Source: Bdellovibrio bacteriovorus (GTDB lineage: Bacteria > Bdellovibrionota > Bdellovibrionia > Bdellovibrionales > Bdellovibrionaceae). Taken from it: 64,000 bases of DNA. The DNA is taken from assembly GCF_001592755.1 (NCBI RefSeq), contig NZ_LUKF01000006.1, positions 1 through 64,000 of the forward strand, in the 5' to 3' direction. The position numbers and the translations under genes were made by a program. The notes beneath the pieces are model-generated. The model made no database searches, was not told the DNA's origin, and saw only the letters and a list, made by a program, of their open reading frames with translations. Below, one piece after another: positions 54,740 through 62,158 of the stretch. How positions within the stretch are numbered: position 1 is the stretch's first letter; each line of letters begins with the position of its first letter.

Positions 54740-54788
54740 ACCGATATGTATGGTGATTTTACAGGGTTTCACCTTTTCAGGAGATATT

Positions 54789-55214
54789 ATGTTTCCCACA
54801 AATACGAAGTTTTTGGTCGTCGATGACTTCGCAACTATGCGAAAAATCATTAAAAAAGTGCTAAACGAGCTAGGTTACACAAACGTCGAGGAAGCTGACG
54901 ACGGTAAAACGGCCCTACCAATGATCCAGGCTGCAAATGATGCAGGCCAGCCTTACGGCTTCATTATTTCTGACTGGAATATGCCAGGAATGCAAGGTAT
55001 CGACCTTTTGAAGGCTTGCAAAGCAGACCCTCGCTTTAAGTCTACTCCTTTCATGCTTGTAACAGCAGAGTCTGAACAAAAACACATCCTGGAAGCGGCA
55101 AAAGCCGGCGTATCTGATTACGTTGTGAAGCCTTTCAATTCGGCGACGCTTAAAGGAAAAATGGAACGCGTTTGGGCGAAACACAATCCTACTTCACAAG
55201 CAAAAGCTTCTTAA
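54789..55214 (+). CDS. cheY: CheY-type response regulator
   Basis: The open frame begins at 54750, but ATG 54789 has AGGAG at the right distance and gives 141 residues (MFPTNTKFLVVDDFATMRK). Single receiver domain with the acidic pair in VVDDF, phospho-acceptor Asp in ISDWNMPGMQG, Thr in LVTAESEQ and Lys in VVKPFN. The close match to the CheY consensus supports a motility role. It is followed 15 bases later by cheX and then an HD protein gene. Confidence 0.95.
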   Translation: MFPTNTKFLVVDDFATMRKIIKKVLNELGYTNVEEADDGKTALPMIQAANDAGQPYGFIISDWNMPGMQGIDLLKACKADPRFKSTPFMLVTAESEQKHILEAAKAGVSDYVVKPFNSATLKGKMERVWAKHNPTSQAKAS

Positions 55215-55229
55215 GAGCTGGAGTTATAA

Positions 55230-55730
55230 ATGTCGGCTGCACCTAAAGTGGAAACACTGAATCCCCTTTTCGACAAACGTCTTATCAATGCGTTCGTCGA
55301 CGGGGTTATTAAAACTTTAAAAACAATGGCGCAAACAGATGCATCTCCAGGCAAGCCCTTCATCGAACCTCAGTTCGTTTTGAAAGGTGAAATTGCGGGC
55401 ATGGTGGGCATGGTCGCTCCTCCTCTTAAAGGAACTCTTCTGATCTCTTACGGTAAAGACAGCATCTTCCATATTTTGGAAAACATGCTGGGCGAAAAAC
55501 ACACGGCTATTAACGGCGAAGTGTCTGATGCTGTGGGCGAAATGACGAACATGATCTATGGATCTGCGAAAACGACGTTGAACCAATTGGGTTACAACTT
55601 CGAAATGGCAATTCCGACTGTGATCTCAGGCGACTTTAAAATCAGCCATGCTGATAAAGGTGCTACACTTGTTATTCCTTTTAATCTTACCAACGGCTCT
55701 ACATTCTACGTGGAGATAACGGTTCAATAA
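55230..55730 (+). CDS. cheX: CheX-type CheY-P phosphatase
   Basis: A 166-residue CheX/CheC-family domain. The active-site helix has the ExxN motif in GEMTNMIYG (after INGEVSDAV), the arrangement used by CheX to dephosphorylate CheY-P. N-terminal LINAFVDGVIKTLKTM and C-terminal LVIPFNL also fit. Only one ExxN is present, as in CheX. Located directly after cheY, sharing one base with the next gene (TAATG). Confidence 0.9.
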   Translation: MSAAPKVETLNPLFDKRLINAFVDGVIKTLKTMAQTDASPGKPFIEPQFVLKGEIAGMVGMVAPPLKGTLLISYGKDSIFHILENMLGEKHTAINGEVSDAVGEMTNMIYGSAKTTLNQLGYNFEMAIPTVISGDFKISHADKGATLVIPFNLTNGSTFYVEITVQ

Positions 55731-57109
55731 TGAAACCCACTTCAGGTCCTACTGTTGACGTTCTCATCGGGAGTCCCCGGGACTCCTTCTGGGAAACAGT
55801 CAAAGTGGTCCTGAAAGGTTACTACCCTTATCAGCTCAAGCACTTTCACAGTGTTGATGAAGCTCTAGAAAATACCTCTGACAACTTCACTCCGGTCTTA
55901 GCTCTTATCGACGGACAAGATGGCACTGCAAAAACCAATGAATGGGTGCAGTCCACGAAAATGAATTATCCCGACAGTCATGTGATCGTTCTGCACTCCT
56001 CAGCTGCGCCTCTTGATTTTAACGTCGTTAAAAAAAATGGTGCGGATGAAATCATGCATATCAACTTTGACCGAGAGTTTATTTCCGACGTGATCCTGCA
56101 GCTAGCTCCTATCGAGATGGAAGGCGATAATATTCCCATCACCTCGTTAATGCCGGTGGATCTGCGCGACATGGAAGCCCAGGTCAACATCAACTTCGAT
56201 GTTTACGTTCACCTCCCCGCCAATCACCGTTCCGTGTGCATGCGTAAAGCGGGGGACGTCGTCGATGATAGGCATCTTGAAAAATTCAAAGCCTTAAAAC
56301 AGCAGATGTACATCAAGAAGACGCAGATGAACGCCTTCTTTGAATATGCGCGCACAGTGATGAGCTTGCGCAATATTGCTTTACCCGTTTCAATGACGGA
56401 AAAGTTTCATCGTTCTAAAAAGTCCATCTATGAAATCATGGCGCAATTTCTAAACGGAGCGGCCACGGACTATTCAGAAGGCAAAATGATCCTAGAAAGA
56501 TGCCGCAATATCATCGCGGACTTTGAGCTTACTAAAGACATGGAAGCCTCAGCTATTTTCGATGAGATCTTCCGCTTCACTGGCAACACTCGCACACTTT
56601 ATCATGATTGCATTTGTCTTTCGGCTTACGCCGCCTACTTTGCACAACTTTTAGGTTGGAGCACAGAAAAGCGTGAGAACGCGGCGATCGCGGGGCTCTT
56701 ACACAATATCGGCCTTTCGCAAATGCCTCCTACCGCGGGAGACAAGACAATTAAAGAATTCTCTGCCGAAGAACTTCAAGCCTATAATTTTTATCCCGAA
56801 CGTTCGGTCAATATGGTGAAAGCCAAGAAGGTTCCCTTACCTCAAGAGATTGCTGATGCCATTGGACAACACCGCGAAAATAACGCCGGCACAGGATTCC
56901 CCAAGAAACTAAAAGCGGAAGACATTTCTGAGTTCGGTAAATTGATGGCTTTAGCGTATCGTTTCCATGAAATGACGGCTCTTCAAGACAACCGCCAAGC
57001 CACAGCCCCAGTTCAAGCCATCACTCTTCTTAAAGAGGGCGCTTTAAGCGGCAATGGGGAGTTGGATCTTTTAATGACCACCCAGGTTTTCAAAAAATTT
57101 AAAGCTTAA
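55730..57109 (+). CDS. Pseudo-receiver/HD-GYP-like protein with degenerate active site
   Basis: A 459-residue protein. Residues 5-125 resemble a receiver domain (LIGSPRDSFWETVKVVL with ALIDGQDG). The C-terminal half is an HD-GYP-like helical domain, but the HD pair is LLHNIG (His-Asn) and the GYP motif reads HRENNAGTGFP. Metal binding for c-di-GMP hydrolysis is therefore doubtful and a binding or scaffold role is likely. It overlaps cheX by one base and ends in a 39-base convergent overlap with the RDD gene. Confidence 0.85.
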   Translation: MKPTSGPTVDVLIGSPRDSFWETVKVVLKGYYPYQLKHFHSVDEALENTSDNFTPVLALIDGQDGTAKTNEWVQSTKMNYPDSHVIVLHSSAAPLDFNVVKKNGADEIMHINFDREFISDVILQLAPIEMEGDNIPITSLMPVDLRDMEAQVNINFDVYVHLPANHRSVCMRKAGDVVDDRHLEKFKALKQQMYIKKTQMNAFFEYARTVMSLRNIALPVSMTEKFHRSKKSIYEIMAQFLNGAATDYSEGKMILERCRNIIADFELTKDMEASAIFDEIFRFTGNTRTLYHDCICLSAYAAYFAQLLGWSTEKRENAAIAGLLHNIGLSQMPPTAGDKTIKEFSAEELQAYNFYPERSVNMVKAKKVPLPQEIADAIGQHRENNAGTGFPKKLKAEDISEFGKLMALAYRFHEMTALQDNRQATAPVQAITLLKEGALSGNGELDLLMTTQVFKKFKA

Positions 57110-58971: not shown

Positions 58972-60024
58972 GTGACGCCACAGGAGATGACCTCTCTTAT
59001 TGATGAAACTTTGCAGGAATTGGGTTTTTCCCATTTCGGCTTCACGTCGTTAAGCAAACCTTTAAGTTTTGATTACTATAAAGAATGGCTCAAAGAAGGT
59101 CTTCATGGCGACATGAAGTATCTTGAAGAGCATGCCCCCATTAAGGAAGAGCCGCAAATCAAATGGCCCCGAGCTCGAAGTGCTTTGGTTTTTGCGATTC
59201 CGTACTATCCCCACCCTGAAAAGAAAGCTGATTTTCCGTTAAAACAAGCGCGCGTCAGCCTTTATGCCCAAGGCATGGATTATCACTTTTGGTTTAAAGC
59301 ACGTATGGCGGAACTTTGCAAAAAGCTGCAAGAAATCTTACCCGAAGAAGAGTTTTTACCTTTCACCGATAGCAGTCCGGTTTTAGAAAGAGATCTCGCC
59401 AAACGCGCCGGCCTGGGATGGGTGGGAAAAAACACCTGCCTTATTCATCCTAAAAAAGGCAGTTTGTTTTTTATCGGAGAAATTTACACTTCGCTGGATT
59501 TAAATACGACTTTTGAACCACTCCCTGATTTTTGTGGGACGTGCCGTCGCTGCATTGATGTTTGTCCGACCAATGCGCTTTTAGAACCCAAGAAAATGGA
59601 TGCTCGGAAATGCATCTCTTATCTGACGATTGAATCACGGCAGGTTCCCGCTCCGGAGCTGCGAGAAAAGATCGGTGACTGGTTTTTCGGATGCGATCTC
59701 TGTCAAACCGTGTGCCCTTGGAATCAAAAAGTTTTTAAGGGCCAGCTGAATATCGAAAAGAATCTTAGTCTAAACACTCAGCAAGCTGACGACTTAAGTG
59801 AAGACTTGCGCTATATACTTACGGCATCGGGAAAAAAACTGACAAAGGACTTCCTGGGAACACCGCTTGCGCGGGCCGGATCTTTCGGATTAAAGCGCAA
59901 TGCTTTAATAGTCGTGGCGAATCGAAAAATAGTGAGCTTAAAAAATGAAGTGAGTGAGCTTTTGTCCCACGAGAAGCTGGGGGAACTTGCCGCTTGGACC
60001 CTGGCTATTTTAAACACCGATTGA
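58972..60024 (+). CDS. queG: Epoxyqueuosine reductase QueG
   Basis: About 350 residues. The frame is open from a TTG at 58966; GTG 58972 is chosen and ATG 58987 is possible. Family elements are EWLKEGLHGDMKYLEEH, SALVFAIPYYP, the cobalamin-domain segment DSSPVLERDLAKRAGLGWVG, and two 4Fe-4S clusters from CGTCRRCIDVCPTNAL and CDLCQTVCPWN. QueG reduces epoxyqueuosine to queuosine in tRNA, the last step of the pathway in which the QueD-like enzyme of this window acts early. Confidence 0.95.
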   Translation: MTPQEMTSLIDETLQELGFSHFGFTSLSKPLSFDYYKEWLKEGLHGDMKYLEEHAPIKEEPQIKWPRARSALVFAIPYYPHPEKKADFPLKQARVSLYAQGMDYHFWFKARMAELCKKLQEILPEEEFLPFTDSSPVLERDLAKRAGLGWVGKNTCLIHPKKGSLFFIGEIYTSLDLNTTFEPLPDFCGTCRRCIDVCPTNALLEPKKMDARKCISYLTIESRQVPAPELREKIGDWFFGCDLCQTVCPWNQKVFKGQLNIEKNLSLNTQQADDLSEDLRYILTASGKKLTKDFLGTPLARAGSFGLKRNALIVVANRKIVSLKNEVSELLSHEKLGELAAWTLAILNTD

Positions 60025-60685
60025 AGTCATCACGATCTTGTTTTTTTGCAAACACAATTCCCATTTTTGTAGAATTCAAAATGCAGGAAAAATTGTATTT
60101 CTTGGCGTCTCCAAATCCCAACCGCTGGCTGTGATAGATAAGAATATTTCTTTCTGTCAGCATGACGTCGACTCTTTTATTTACCAAAAGTTTCAGGCGT
60201 TTTTCTACGCCTTGCATTTCCTGATAGTCCGCCACTTTTCTAATTTCATCCAATTGGGACTTATCTAGAATGTATTGCGCATTTTTGAACGACACCACTC
60301 GGCGTCCCTTCAAATGCTCCATTTTTTCGATATGGATATTGTTTTCAGCCAAAGTCACCAGACAGTTTTCCGGTTGAAAAAAGCGTTCGCTTTCAAAAAA
60401 ACCCGGAAGAGCCGCTGCTGGAATTAAGCCCCCAGCATCGAGAGCCCCGCTCCTTAAACGCTCAATAGTGCGAGCCGAAGGCATGGCCCGGTATTTTGCA
60501 TCCCACTGACATTTTTTAAAAGCATGCTCCATGGTCTCAAAAGCGACACCACGTCCTTTGCCTTCTTCAAATATCACGTAAGGTTCTTGATTTTCGGGAA
60601 AGCCGACGGTGATGTTTCGTGCCAGTCCTTGCAGAGGAAGTGATAAACCCCATACAAGAAGGACTAGCGCTAACTTCGTCATCAC
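60005..60685 (-). CDS. Periplasmic solute-binding-like protein
   Basis: A 226-residue exported protein (signal peptide to LQGLA-RNI). The type II binding-protein (SBP family 3) pattern is visible: TVGFPENQEPYVIFEEGKGR, GVAFETMEHAF, LRSGALDAGG, then MEHLKGRRVVSFKNAQYIL and LVNKRVDVMLTER. It could bind an amino acid or act as a sensor; there is no transporter nearby. It overlaps the CheZ-tail gene by ATGA and queG convergently by 20 bases. Confidence 0.8.
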   Translation of the reverse strand: MMTKLALVLLVWGLSLPLQGLARNITVGFPENQEPYVIFEEGKGRGVAFETMEHAFKKCQWDAKYRAMPSARTIERLRSGALDAGGLIPAAALPGFFESERFFQPENCLVTLAENNIHIEKMEHLKGRRVVSFKNAQYILDKSQLDEIRKVADYQEMQGVEKRLKLLVNKRVDVMLTERNILIYHSQRLGFGDAKKYNFSCILNSTKMGIVFAKKQDRDDFNRCLK

Positions 60686-61200
60686 AACCCCAGTTTTTTC
60701 AGAAGATCGTCGATCTCGGACTGTTTGAGTTTTTTATCTTTCGTGCCTGTGCCCACACTCATCGAGTACTCTTCACTGAATTGATTTGAGACCCAGCGCA
60801 GTCTTTCGATAAATGCTTGCGGAATTTTTTCACGAAGAGTCTTACCCTCTTCAAAAATATTATCGATTAAAGATTCCAATGTCTCTGTGGCATCCAACAA
60901 AAGAGCGACACAAATGTCGAAGAACTGTTCATTGTCGGTGATTTGAGACGCCTTGTAGCCAACAGCTTTGCAAAGCGCGGCATAGTCAGAAATCATGTGT
61001 AAAGGGTGATCGGGGGGCACCATCATCGCGAGGCTCTTCGCGCCGCCCATAATGCGGTCCACATTGTTTCCGTAATCAGCGAGCTTTGTCACTTGAGAGA
61101 AGTCGCCTTCTATACTTTCGAGAAGGTCTATCAACTCTTCAATCAAGGTCTTTGACTCGCCTACAAAATCTTCTACAATTTCTTTATCAATCGACATCAA
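60682..61200 (-). CDS. HPt-like protein with CheZ/FliM-type CheY-binding tail
   Basis: A 172-residue acidic helical protein. Residues 1-60 resemble an HPt/CheA P1 domain (IVEDFVGESKTLIEELIDLL then NNVDRIMGGAKSLA), but the phospho-His position holds Asp48 (D-R-I-M-G-G-A against HxxKGxA). The last 13 residues QSEIDDLLKKLGL match the CheY-P-binding peptides at the CheZ C-terminus and FliM N-terminus, after a flexible SVGTGTKDKKLK linker. A CheY-P-binding role is inferred from this. It overlaps the binding-protein gene by ATGA and is divergent from an HD-domain gene. Confidence 0.7.
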   Translation of the reverse strand: MMSIDKEIVEDFVGESKTLIEELIDLLESIEGDFSQVTKLADYGNNVDRIMGGAKSLAMMVPPDHPLHMISDYAALCKAVGYKASQITDNEQFFDICVALLLDATETLESLIDNIFEEGKTLREKIPQAFIERLRWVSNQFSEEYSMSVGTGTKDKKLKQSEIDDLLKKLGL

Positions 61201-61231
61201 CTCACGATAACAATCGAAGGATACAGAGGCA

Positions 61232-62158
61232 ATGGATTATGTTTCTATTCGCGTAAGCACCCTGCGCGGAGATCAAAAGATCGACTTCAACGCTTACGTT
61301 AAAATCAATGACAAGATGATCCTCTACCTTCGTCGCGGCGACAGCTTCGAAGGTGAGCGTCTTCAGCGTCTTAAGGACAAAAAACTTCGCAAGATGTACA
61401 TCCTTACGGAAGAAGAAAACACCTACCGCAACTATCTGCAAAAGAATATCGAGATGGCTTACGACAACTCTTCCAACAAGGATATTCAAACGCGCGCGGA
61501 AATCATTCAAGGCTCCCAACAAAGCAACACCGAAGAGGTGTTTGAAAATCCCGATAATGTTGAGTCTTACAACTACTGCAAAGACGCCGCCGGTAAATAT
61601 GTGAATTTCATCCTTAGCAATGCGCAAGCCACGCAGACTATCATGAACATGGAAAATACGGATAAGAACATCGCCCATCATGGCGTGACGGTTTCAACAC
61701 TTTCCATCGCGTTAGCGCAAAAGCTGGGAATCACCGATTCCAGAAAAACGCAGCTTCTGACTTTGGGCGCTCTTCTGCACGACTATGGCCATCATGGCTC
61801 TCCTTTGAATTTAAACCAGCCGCTGGATAAAATGAGCCCCGAAGATAAAAAAATGTGGAATCAACATCCCCACGACGGAGCCCAAAAGGTTCACGATAAA
61901 AAACATTTTGATCAAACCGTGATTAATATCATCGCTCAACACGAAGAAACGATTAATGGTGCGGGTCCGAAGGGCATGCGCGAAAAAGAGATGGATCCTC
62001 TTTCGGTCATCGTCTCTTCCGCCAATGCCATGGACCGTTTGATCACTTTTGAAGGTGTTCCCAAAACGGAAGCGGCTAAAAAACTAATGATTGATCACGT
62101 CGGCAAACATCCGCTGCAACACCTGCAAATGCTGAATGATATCCTGCGCGGAGTTTGA
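61232..62158 (+). CDS. HD-domain protein related to HD-GYP phosphodiesterases
   Basis: A 308-residue cytoplasmic protein. The N-terminal 80 residues (FNAYVKINDKMILYLRRGDS, LKDKKLRKMYI) form a small sensory-like domain seen in HD-GYP relatives. The HD domain (about residues 145-300) keeps HHGVTVSTLS, the HD pair in ALLHDYGHHG, NQHPHDGAQ and IIAQHEE, but the GYP loop reads NGAGPKG. The metal site thus looks intact while the c-di-GMP loop is altered. It may hydrolyse c-di-GMP or another phosphodiester. Confidence 0.88.
   Translation: MDYVSIRVSTLRGDQKIDFNAYVKINDKMILYLRRGDSFEGERLQRLKDKKLRKMYILTEEENTYRNYLQKNIEMAYDNSSNKDIQTRAEIIQGSQQSNTEEVFENPDNVESYNYCKDAAGKYVNFILSNAQATQTIMNMENTDKNIAHHGVTVSTLSIALAQKLGITDSRKTQLLTLGALLHDYGHHGSPLNLNQPLDKMSPEDKKMWNQHPHDGAQKVHDKKHFDQTVINIIAQHEETINGAGPKGMREKEMDPLSVIVSSANAMDRLITFEGVPKTEAAKKLMIDHVGKHPLQHLQMLNDILRGV

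Follow-up and report, generated by a model that had tools for sequence, protein, structure and literature searches.

What does a protein do that joins an HPt-like domain devoid of its phospho-histidine to a C-terminal peptide of the kind by which CheZ and FliM bind CheY-P? This question is raised by a small gene in a 64,000-nucleotide stretch of Bdellovibrio bacteriovorus DNA (hereafter the window, meaning the whole stretch that was analysed), whose product was described in these terms by an initial annotation. We find that this product represents a new family of chemotaxis proteins, wherein known parts occur in a combination that is unreported as far as the literature searched reaches, and that it is probably a new regulator of the steering of these swimming predators. 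A literature search of partial coverage (Bd1816/Bd1818, chemotaxis in Bdellovibrio and Bacteriovorax, CheZ with HPt, and pseudo-HPt) yielded no prior description.

The gene and its divergent partner

The open reading frame was found where the initial annotation had placed it (Table 1), and since 74 of the 143 class genomes conserve it, the gene is real. Translation probably begins at ATG 61197, where homologues start with MSIDKEI, giving a protein of 171 amino acids, rather than at TTG 61200. The product has no Pfam, NCBIfam or PHROG assignment. A Pfam match to ATG17_like (E 0.052) lies far under the cut-off, while PHROGs returned two weak chance matches and NCBIfam none.

Table 1. Positions in the window of the features discussed in the text
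Feature	Position	Strand	Basis or remark
Gene for 172-aa protein	60682..61200	-	172 codons from TTG 61200
CheA-P1-type HPt-like five-helix domain, residues 3-142	60775..61194	-	AlphaFold, VIA-align, hhalign
Codon 45, Asn, at the Arg three residues before the CheA P1 phospho-His	61066..61068	-	Alignment
Codon 48, Asp at the phospho-His position	61057..61059	-	HMMER and hhalign alignments
Low-confidence linker, residues 148-157	60730..60759	-	pLDDT <50 for residues 148-158
C-terminal CheY-binding-type tail LKQSEIDDLLKKLGL, residues 158-172, predicted helix	60685..60729	-	AlphaFold, pattern, hhalign
Divergent partner, Bd1817 orthologue (PDB 3tm8), unconventional HD-GYP protein	61232..62158	+	PDB match
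CheY, presumed target	54750..55214	+	53% identical to E. coli CheY
CheX phosphatase	55230..55730	+	
HD_5-domain protein of the cheY-cheX gene run	55730..57109	+	

The end of the gene is overlapped by a solute-binding-like gene (family 3, weak Pfam match; 60005-60685). Among relatives in which that flank was read, this neighbour is seen only in G006 (loci L002 and L082), and it therefore looks like a recent insertion between the window gene and a QueG-like gene.

On the other side an HD-domain gene is divergent, as had been claimed. The two start codons (61197-61232) are 34 nucleotides apart, close to the median gap of about 36 in relatives, and this spacing implies that at least one promoter lies inside the partner's coding region. 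The HD protein of the window spans PDB entry 3tm8 (E 1.4e-179); in genome G004 the copy is identical over 307 of 307 residues. Passages of PMC4159591 describe Bd1817 as devoid of both the GYP tyrosine and c-di-GMP phosphodiesterase activity, and say of its regulatory role that it “still remains to be revealed”.

The HD gene divergently adjoins 69 of 73 copies in the class, a count that excludes the window and duplicate loci and that includes two exceptions (L050 and L075) at contig ends among its four. Eleven class genomes carry a Bd1817 orthologue without a window-type gene; in ten of these, L151 being the exception, a QueG-like gene directly adjoins and the slot is empty. Loci L142-L153 (G116-G119, G128, G130-G132, G134, G135, G088 and G094) have the orthologue with no adjacent partner, mostly next to the QueG-like gene.

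An HPt-like domain with a re-used phosphorylation site

Alignment of the N-terminal helices with HPt domains, proposed from the sequence, is supported by profile comparisons, by the predicted fold and by conservation. The AlphaFold model of the window protein (pLDDT 87.7) consists of five main helices and resembles CheA P1 rather than an unrelated fold. Three CheA P1 entries occupy ranks 1-3 of a Foldseek search, with E values of about 0.1-0.2 and none below 0.001. VIA-align superposes the model on CheA P1 (1i5n) with an rmsd of 2.6 Å over 126 of 128 residues and a Z of 14.3, a score that discriminates weakly among helical bundles, given that designed bundles reach 11-14.6 and one designed repeat protein 13.6. 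A second model, built from the distant member L160, again matches 1i5n (Z 14.7, 2.5 Å, 127 residues) and also many other HPt proteins. The VIA-align rows of both models contain no CheZ chains, and so offer no argument against a likeness to CheZ.

Profile comparisons point the same way. Aligned by hhalign, 89 homologues match 24 CheA P1 domains from the class with a probability of 95.7, an E of 9.9e-9 and a score of 55.5 over 124 columns, whereas the highest score among 20 column shuffles is 16.1 and the reversed control gives 17.4. Pfam Hpt (PF01627) matches L160 over almost the whole profile, at 27.4 bits versus a cut-off of 24.6; at E up to 1 it matches 15 of 55 family members, and the window protein itself has no match at that threshold. 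A PDB profile search with HMMER gives weak matches to three CheA P1 chains (E 0.24-0.45). The best PDB profile match of the window protein is an unrelated glutathione transferase (E 0.097). Given the controlled hhalign result, the Pfam match of L160 and the L160 model, the N-terminal domain is likely to be homologous to CheA P1 and HPt domains.

Replacement of the phospho-histidine by Asp holds throughout the family. Asp48 aligns on the phospho-His both of CheA P1 chains in the PDB (weak HMMER alignments) and of local CheAs (hhalign), and position 48 is Asp in 88 of the 89 aligned homologues, Glu in one and His in none. An active HPt is thus ruled out, and with the phospho-acceptor lost the usual phosphate relay is impossible for the window protein, which belongs to the HPt fold by homology and is not an active HPt. 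In place of R-x-x-H-x-x-K-G, the family carries the signature [N/Q]45-x-x-D48-R49-x-M51-G52, with Asn or Gln at position 45 in 86 of the 89 homologues, Arg49 in 87, Met51 in 83 and Gly52 in 87. Lys78, Asp103 and Arg133 are near-invariant as well. This uniformity is too high for decay and argues that the former phospho-His site is re-used.

A swapped dyad of Asp48 and Lys78 may replace His48-Glu67 of CheA; this pairing is a candidate, and the hhalign alignment to CheA P1 is ambiguous in helix C. Reading [DE]42-x-x-[NQ]45 as an E-x-x-N motif was rejected, position 42 being acidic in only 53 of 89 sequences. Cys77 (column 77 of alignment A1) is invariant in the 69 class sequences; among 20 sequences of other families, 13 have Gly there.

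A C-terminal tail of the CheY-binding type

The C-terminus QSEIDDLLKKLGL was confirmed in the window protein. That it matches the CheY-binding peptide of CheZ and FliM, as first proposed, agrees at the level of sequence with a genome-wide pattern search and with hhalign comparison to CheZ. FliM from the same genome starts with MNQVLSQSEVDALL, and E. coli CheZ terminates in SQDQVDDLLDSLGF. The pattern Q-x-E-[IV]-D-x-L-L occurs three times in the 3.66-Mb genome and its backward control not at all; the matches are the window tail, the N-terminus of FliM (VLSQSEVDALL) and a site in a 114-aa stop-to-stop frame without obvious function. When a tail regular expression built by the analyst from the family itself was run over the 333 stop-to-stop ORFs of the window, it matched only the C-terminus of the window protein. 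When the family is compared with E. coli CheZ, hhalign aligns just the last 18 residues of both, with flush C-termini (E 0.00087). Pfam CheZ finds 12 of 55 members when E values up to 1 are admitted (best 0.0011), and on L160 it pairs residues 146-166 with profile positions 178-202 at 10.6 bits versus a cut-off of 30.7. AlphaFold predicts a helix spanning residues 158-169.

The tail is not equally preserved everywhere. Operon copies of f12 show it clearly and most f26 copies only faintly, and it is absent from G331, G348, G349 and G350, while FliM keeps [ST]Q-x-E-V-D-A-L-L in all 20 genomes checked in other families. The f26 and f29 relatives with a degraded or missing tail keep the core and N/Q-x-x-D-R, which means that some role of the core is independent of the tail. 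Tail-less second paralogues also exist in f12 (L243 and L244, from G193 and G185), where FGQ-x-[VI]DRIYG is kept and the end motif is YS[IV]DKKSCA.

Distribution and chemotaxis neighbours

Of 368 genomes in the phylum, 175 contain the family according to a profile made from alignment A1, the named relatives with the gene being Bdellovibrio and Bdellovibrionales. Alignment A1 comprises 69 sequences, leaving aside L002 (near-identical) and L080 (divergent); the column table covers 71 of 83 detected proteins, with duplicates and truncated copies excluded; 55 of 89 were taken into alignment A2; and L081 (G094) was never recovered by tblastn.

In raw counts over the 143 class genomes, uncorrected for kinship or for incomplete genomes, FliM is present in 73 of 74 genomes with the gene versus 50 of 69 without it, CheX in 72 versus 27, the CheA dimerisation domain in 67 versus 25, and a Bd1817 orthologue (E up to 1e-40) in 72 versus 11. 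CheZ is above its Pfam cut-off in none of these 143 genomes, where one sub-threshold partial match occurs in G120.

The initial annotation had placed cheY and cheX 6 kb from the gene. Both are indeed nearby, at a distance of about 5-5.5 kb (ends 55214 and 55730). The extent of identity between the window CheY and E. coli CheY makes a conserved docking face plausible. The window CheX contains GEMTNM, which carries the E-x-x-N motif, and a regular expression finds G[EA]E-x-x-NM kept in 10 of 13 CheX proteins from f12. Directly after cheX, the HD_5-domain protein has an N-terminal part that looks receiver-like by eye.

The proposed link to chemotaxis gains support from operons with cheY and cheX in relatives. 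The f12 sample consisted of 35 loci plus L174, mostly best matches, drawn from 86 f12 genomes with matches. Of these 36 loci, 33 have cheY immediately upstream in the same orientation, and in 29 cheX follows immediately downstream, mostly within 30 nucleotides, a tighter arrangement than that of the window. The genus g104 is under-sampled in this set, with the single genome L174, where the HD gene is divergent and no cheY stands beside the family gene. A Bd1817-like HD gene is also found near several f12 loci.

Proposed function

We propose, tentatively and just short of an even call, that the protein is a regulator of CheY-P that acts in the manner of CheZ on a dead HPt scaffold. The parts of this proposal differ in strength. 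The protein very probably binds CheY or CheY-P, and we think it fairly probable that it lowers active CheY-P by one route or another. The tail would capture CheY-P at the face used by FliM, as the tail of CheZ does, and would thereby allow docking of the P1-like bundle above the active site of CheY in the manner of CheA P1. There Asn/Gln45 and Asp48 would most likely do the work of the amide and acid found in CheZ and CheX: they would orient water and contact the active-site Lys, whereby the protein, alone or in concert with CheX, would dephosphorylate CheY-P. As its partner or controller we envisage the Bd1817-type HD protein of the divergent gene.

Passages of PMC3035606 report that CheZ and CheC/CheX/FliY place two groups in the receiver site, an acid and an amide (from Gln or Asn), and that Rap phosphatases need no more than the amide. 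Asn/Gln45 and Asp48 supply an amide and an acid on one helix face, with an acid (Asp or Glu) at position 48 in 89 of 89 homologues. Their order, N/Q-x-x-D, is the reverse of D-x-x-x-Q in CheZ and E-x-x-N in CheX, and the geometry therefore may not fit catalysis. Moreover, the presence of the CheX phosphatase in nearly all positive class genomes, often encoded in the same operon, means that a second phosphatase is not required. For these two reasons we lean somewhat against catalysis as the route by which CheY-P is lowered.

Two other roles appear unlikely to us. The protein could be a non-catalytic sink or competitor whose tail binds CheY-P while the dead P1 domain covers the active site, keeping CheY from FliM or from the P1 domain of CheA. 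Loss of the His with retention of the fold would suit such a role, as would a tail able to compete with the FliM peptide of nearly the same sequence in the same genome, and plant pseudo-HPt proteins that inhibit phosphorelays provide a precedent. However, a mere block leaves the near-invariant residues from Asn/Gln45, Asp48, Arg49, Met51 and Gly52 to Lys78, Asp103 and Arg133 unexplained.

The second of these roles, in our estimate also improbable, is that of an adaptor whose tail delivers CheY-P to a partner bound to the core, be it the Bd1817-type HD protein or CheX, which would thereby acquire a CheY-binding peptide that it is without. The adjacency of cheX in most f12 loci (29 of 36) and the presence of CheX in 72 of 74 positive class genomes speak for this role, as do the divergent HD gene (69 of 73 class copies), the distribution of Bd1817 orthologues (72 of 74 positive versus 11 of 69 negative genomes) and the f26 members that lack the tail and are still paired with an HD gene. 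FimL, a Gln-substituted HPt protein proposed in passages of PMC3019171 as a link between ChpA and CyaB, is a precedent. Yet the partners vary by clade, with HD in the window's class and CheX in f12 (although Bd1817-like HD genes stand near several f12 loci), and 11 genomes have a Bd1817 orthologue without the window-type gene.

It is very improbable that the tail resemblance is incidental and that the protein belongs instead to some other pathway in which the HD protein acts, a notion that would accommodate loss of the tail in part of the phylum and the HD linkage as the strongest in the class, but that sits poorly with the conservation of the tail throughout the class and f12, with its flush alignment to the end of CheZ, and with cheY and cheX genes beside the family gene.

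The preferred reading, a CheZ-like regulator of CheY-P, can be extended into an evolutionary scheme that we regard as doubtful. Within a phylum that lacks CheZ, a CheA P1 domain would have become a stand-alone CheZ analogue by changing Arg-x-x-His to Asn/Gln-x-x-Asp and acquiring a tail of the CheZ type. It would be linked to the catalytically dead HD-GYP protein Bd1817, through which cyclic-nucleotide state could be coupled to CheY in these predators.

If a CheZ-like regulator is indeed encoded here, the chemotaxis set would gain a gene that much of the predator phylum carries between cheY and cheX, and the HPt domain would prove reusable as a CheY-P effector after loss of its His. Bd1817, which has been crystallised but is without a function, would gain a testable place beside CheY. 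Since every component is small and soluble, the matter lends itself to direct assays.

Comparison with known systems

With CheA P1 the window protein shares the five-helix fold over residues 3-142, profile homology and Gly52 of the HxxKG motif. It differs in having Asp for the phospho-His, Met for the motif Lys and Asn/Gln for the Arg at -3, and in being a free-standing protein without kinase domains and with a CheY-binding-type tail. The N-terminal peptide of FliM has a Q-S-E-[IV]-D-x-L-L sequence identical in kind within the same genome, whereas in the window protein this peptide is C-terminal and no FliM domain accompanies it; a Pfam scan of the protein gave no FliM match, and the FliM of this genome is encoded elsewhere.

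Among the CheX/CheC/FliY phosphatases, CheX is an operon partner and FliY also carries a CheY-binding N-terminus, but their fold is unrelated to that of the window protein, which has no Pfam CheX or CheC match. FimL of Pseudomonas aeruginosa, compared by description only, is likewise HPt-like with its phospho-His replaced, in this case by Gln (PMC3019171). Unlike the window protein, it belongs to a type IV pilus system, and the covered part of PMC3019171 reports no such tail.

CheZ differs in its core. The window core is HPt/P1-like and is unmatched by the CheZ model, the window protein has no Pfam CheZ match at E up to 1, and in other members Pfam CheZ matches tails only. The catalytic motif of CheZ is D-x-x-x-Q, and the suggestion that a Gln equivalent to the CheZ catalytic residue be sought led to a negative result: in the column table (71 sequences), no conserved Gln has a conserved acid four residues ahead of it. 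That residue is Q147 in passages of PMC3035606. With its core failing both model and motif, the window-type protein is not CheZ and is CheZ-like by hypothesis. What it does share with CheZ is a CheY-binding-type helix at the extreme C-terminus behind a flexible linker, a conserved acid and amide in the core, and an adjacent cheY in relatives, as in the cheY-cheZ pair of E. coli.
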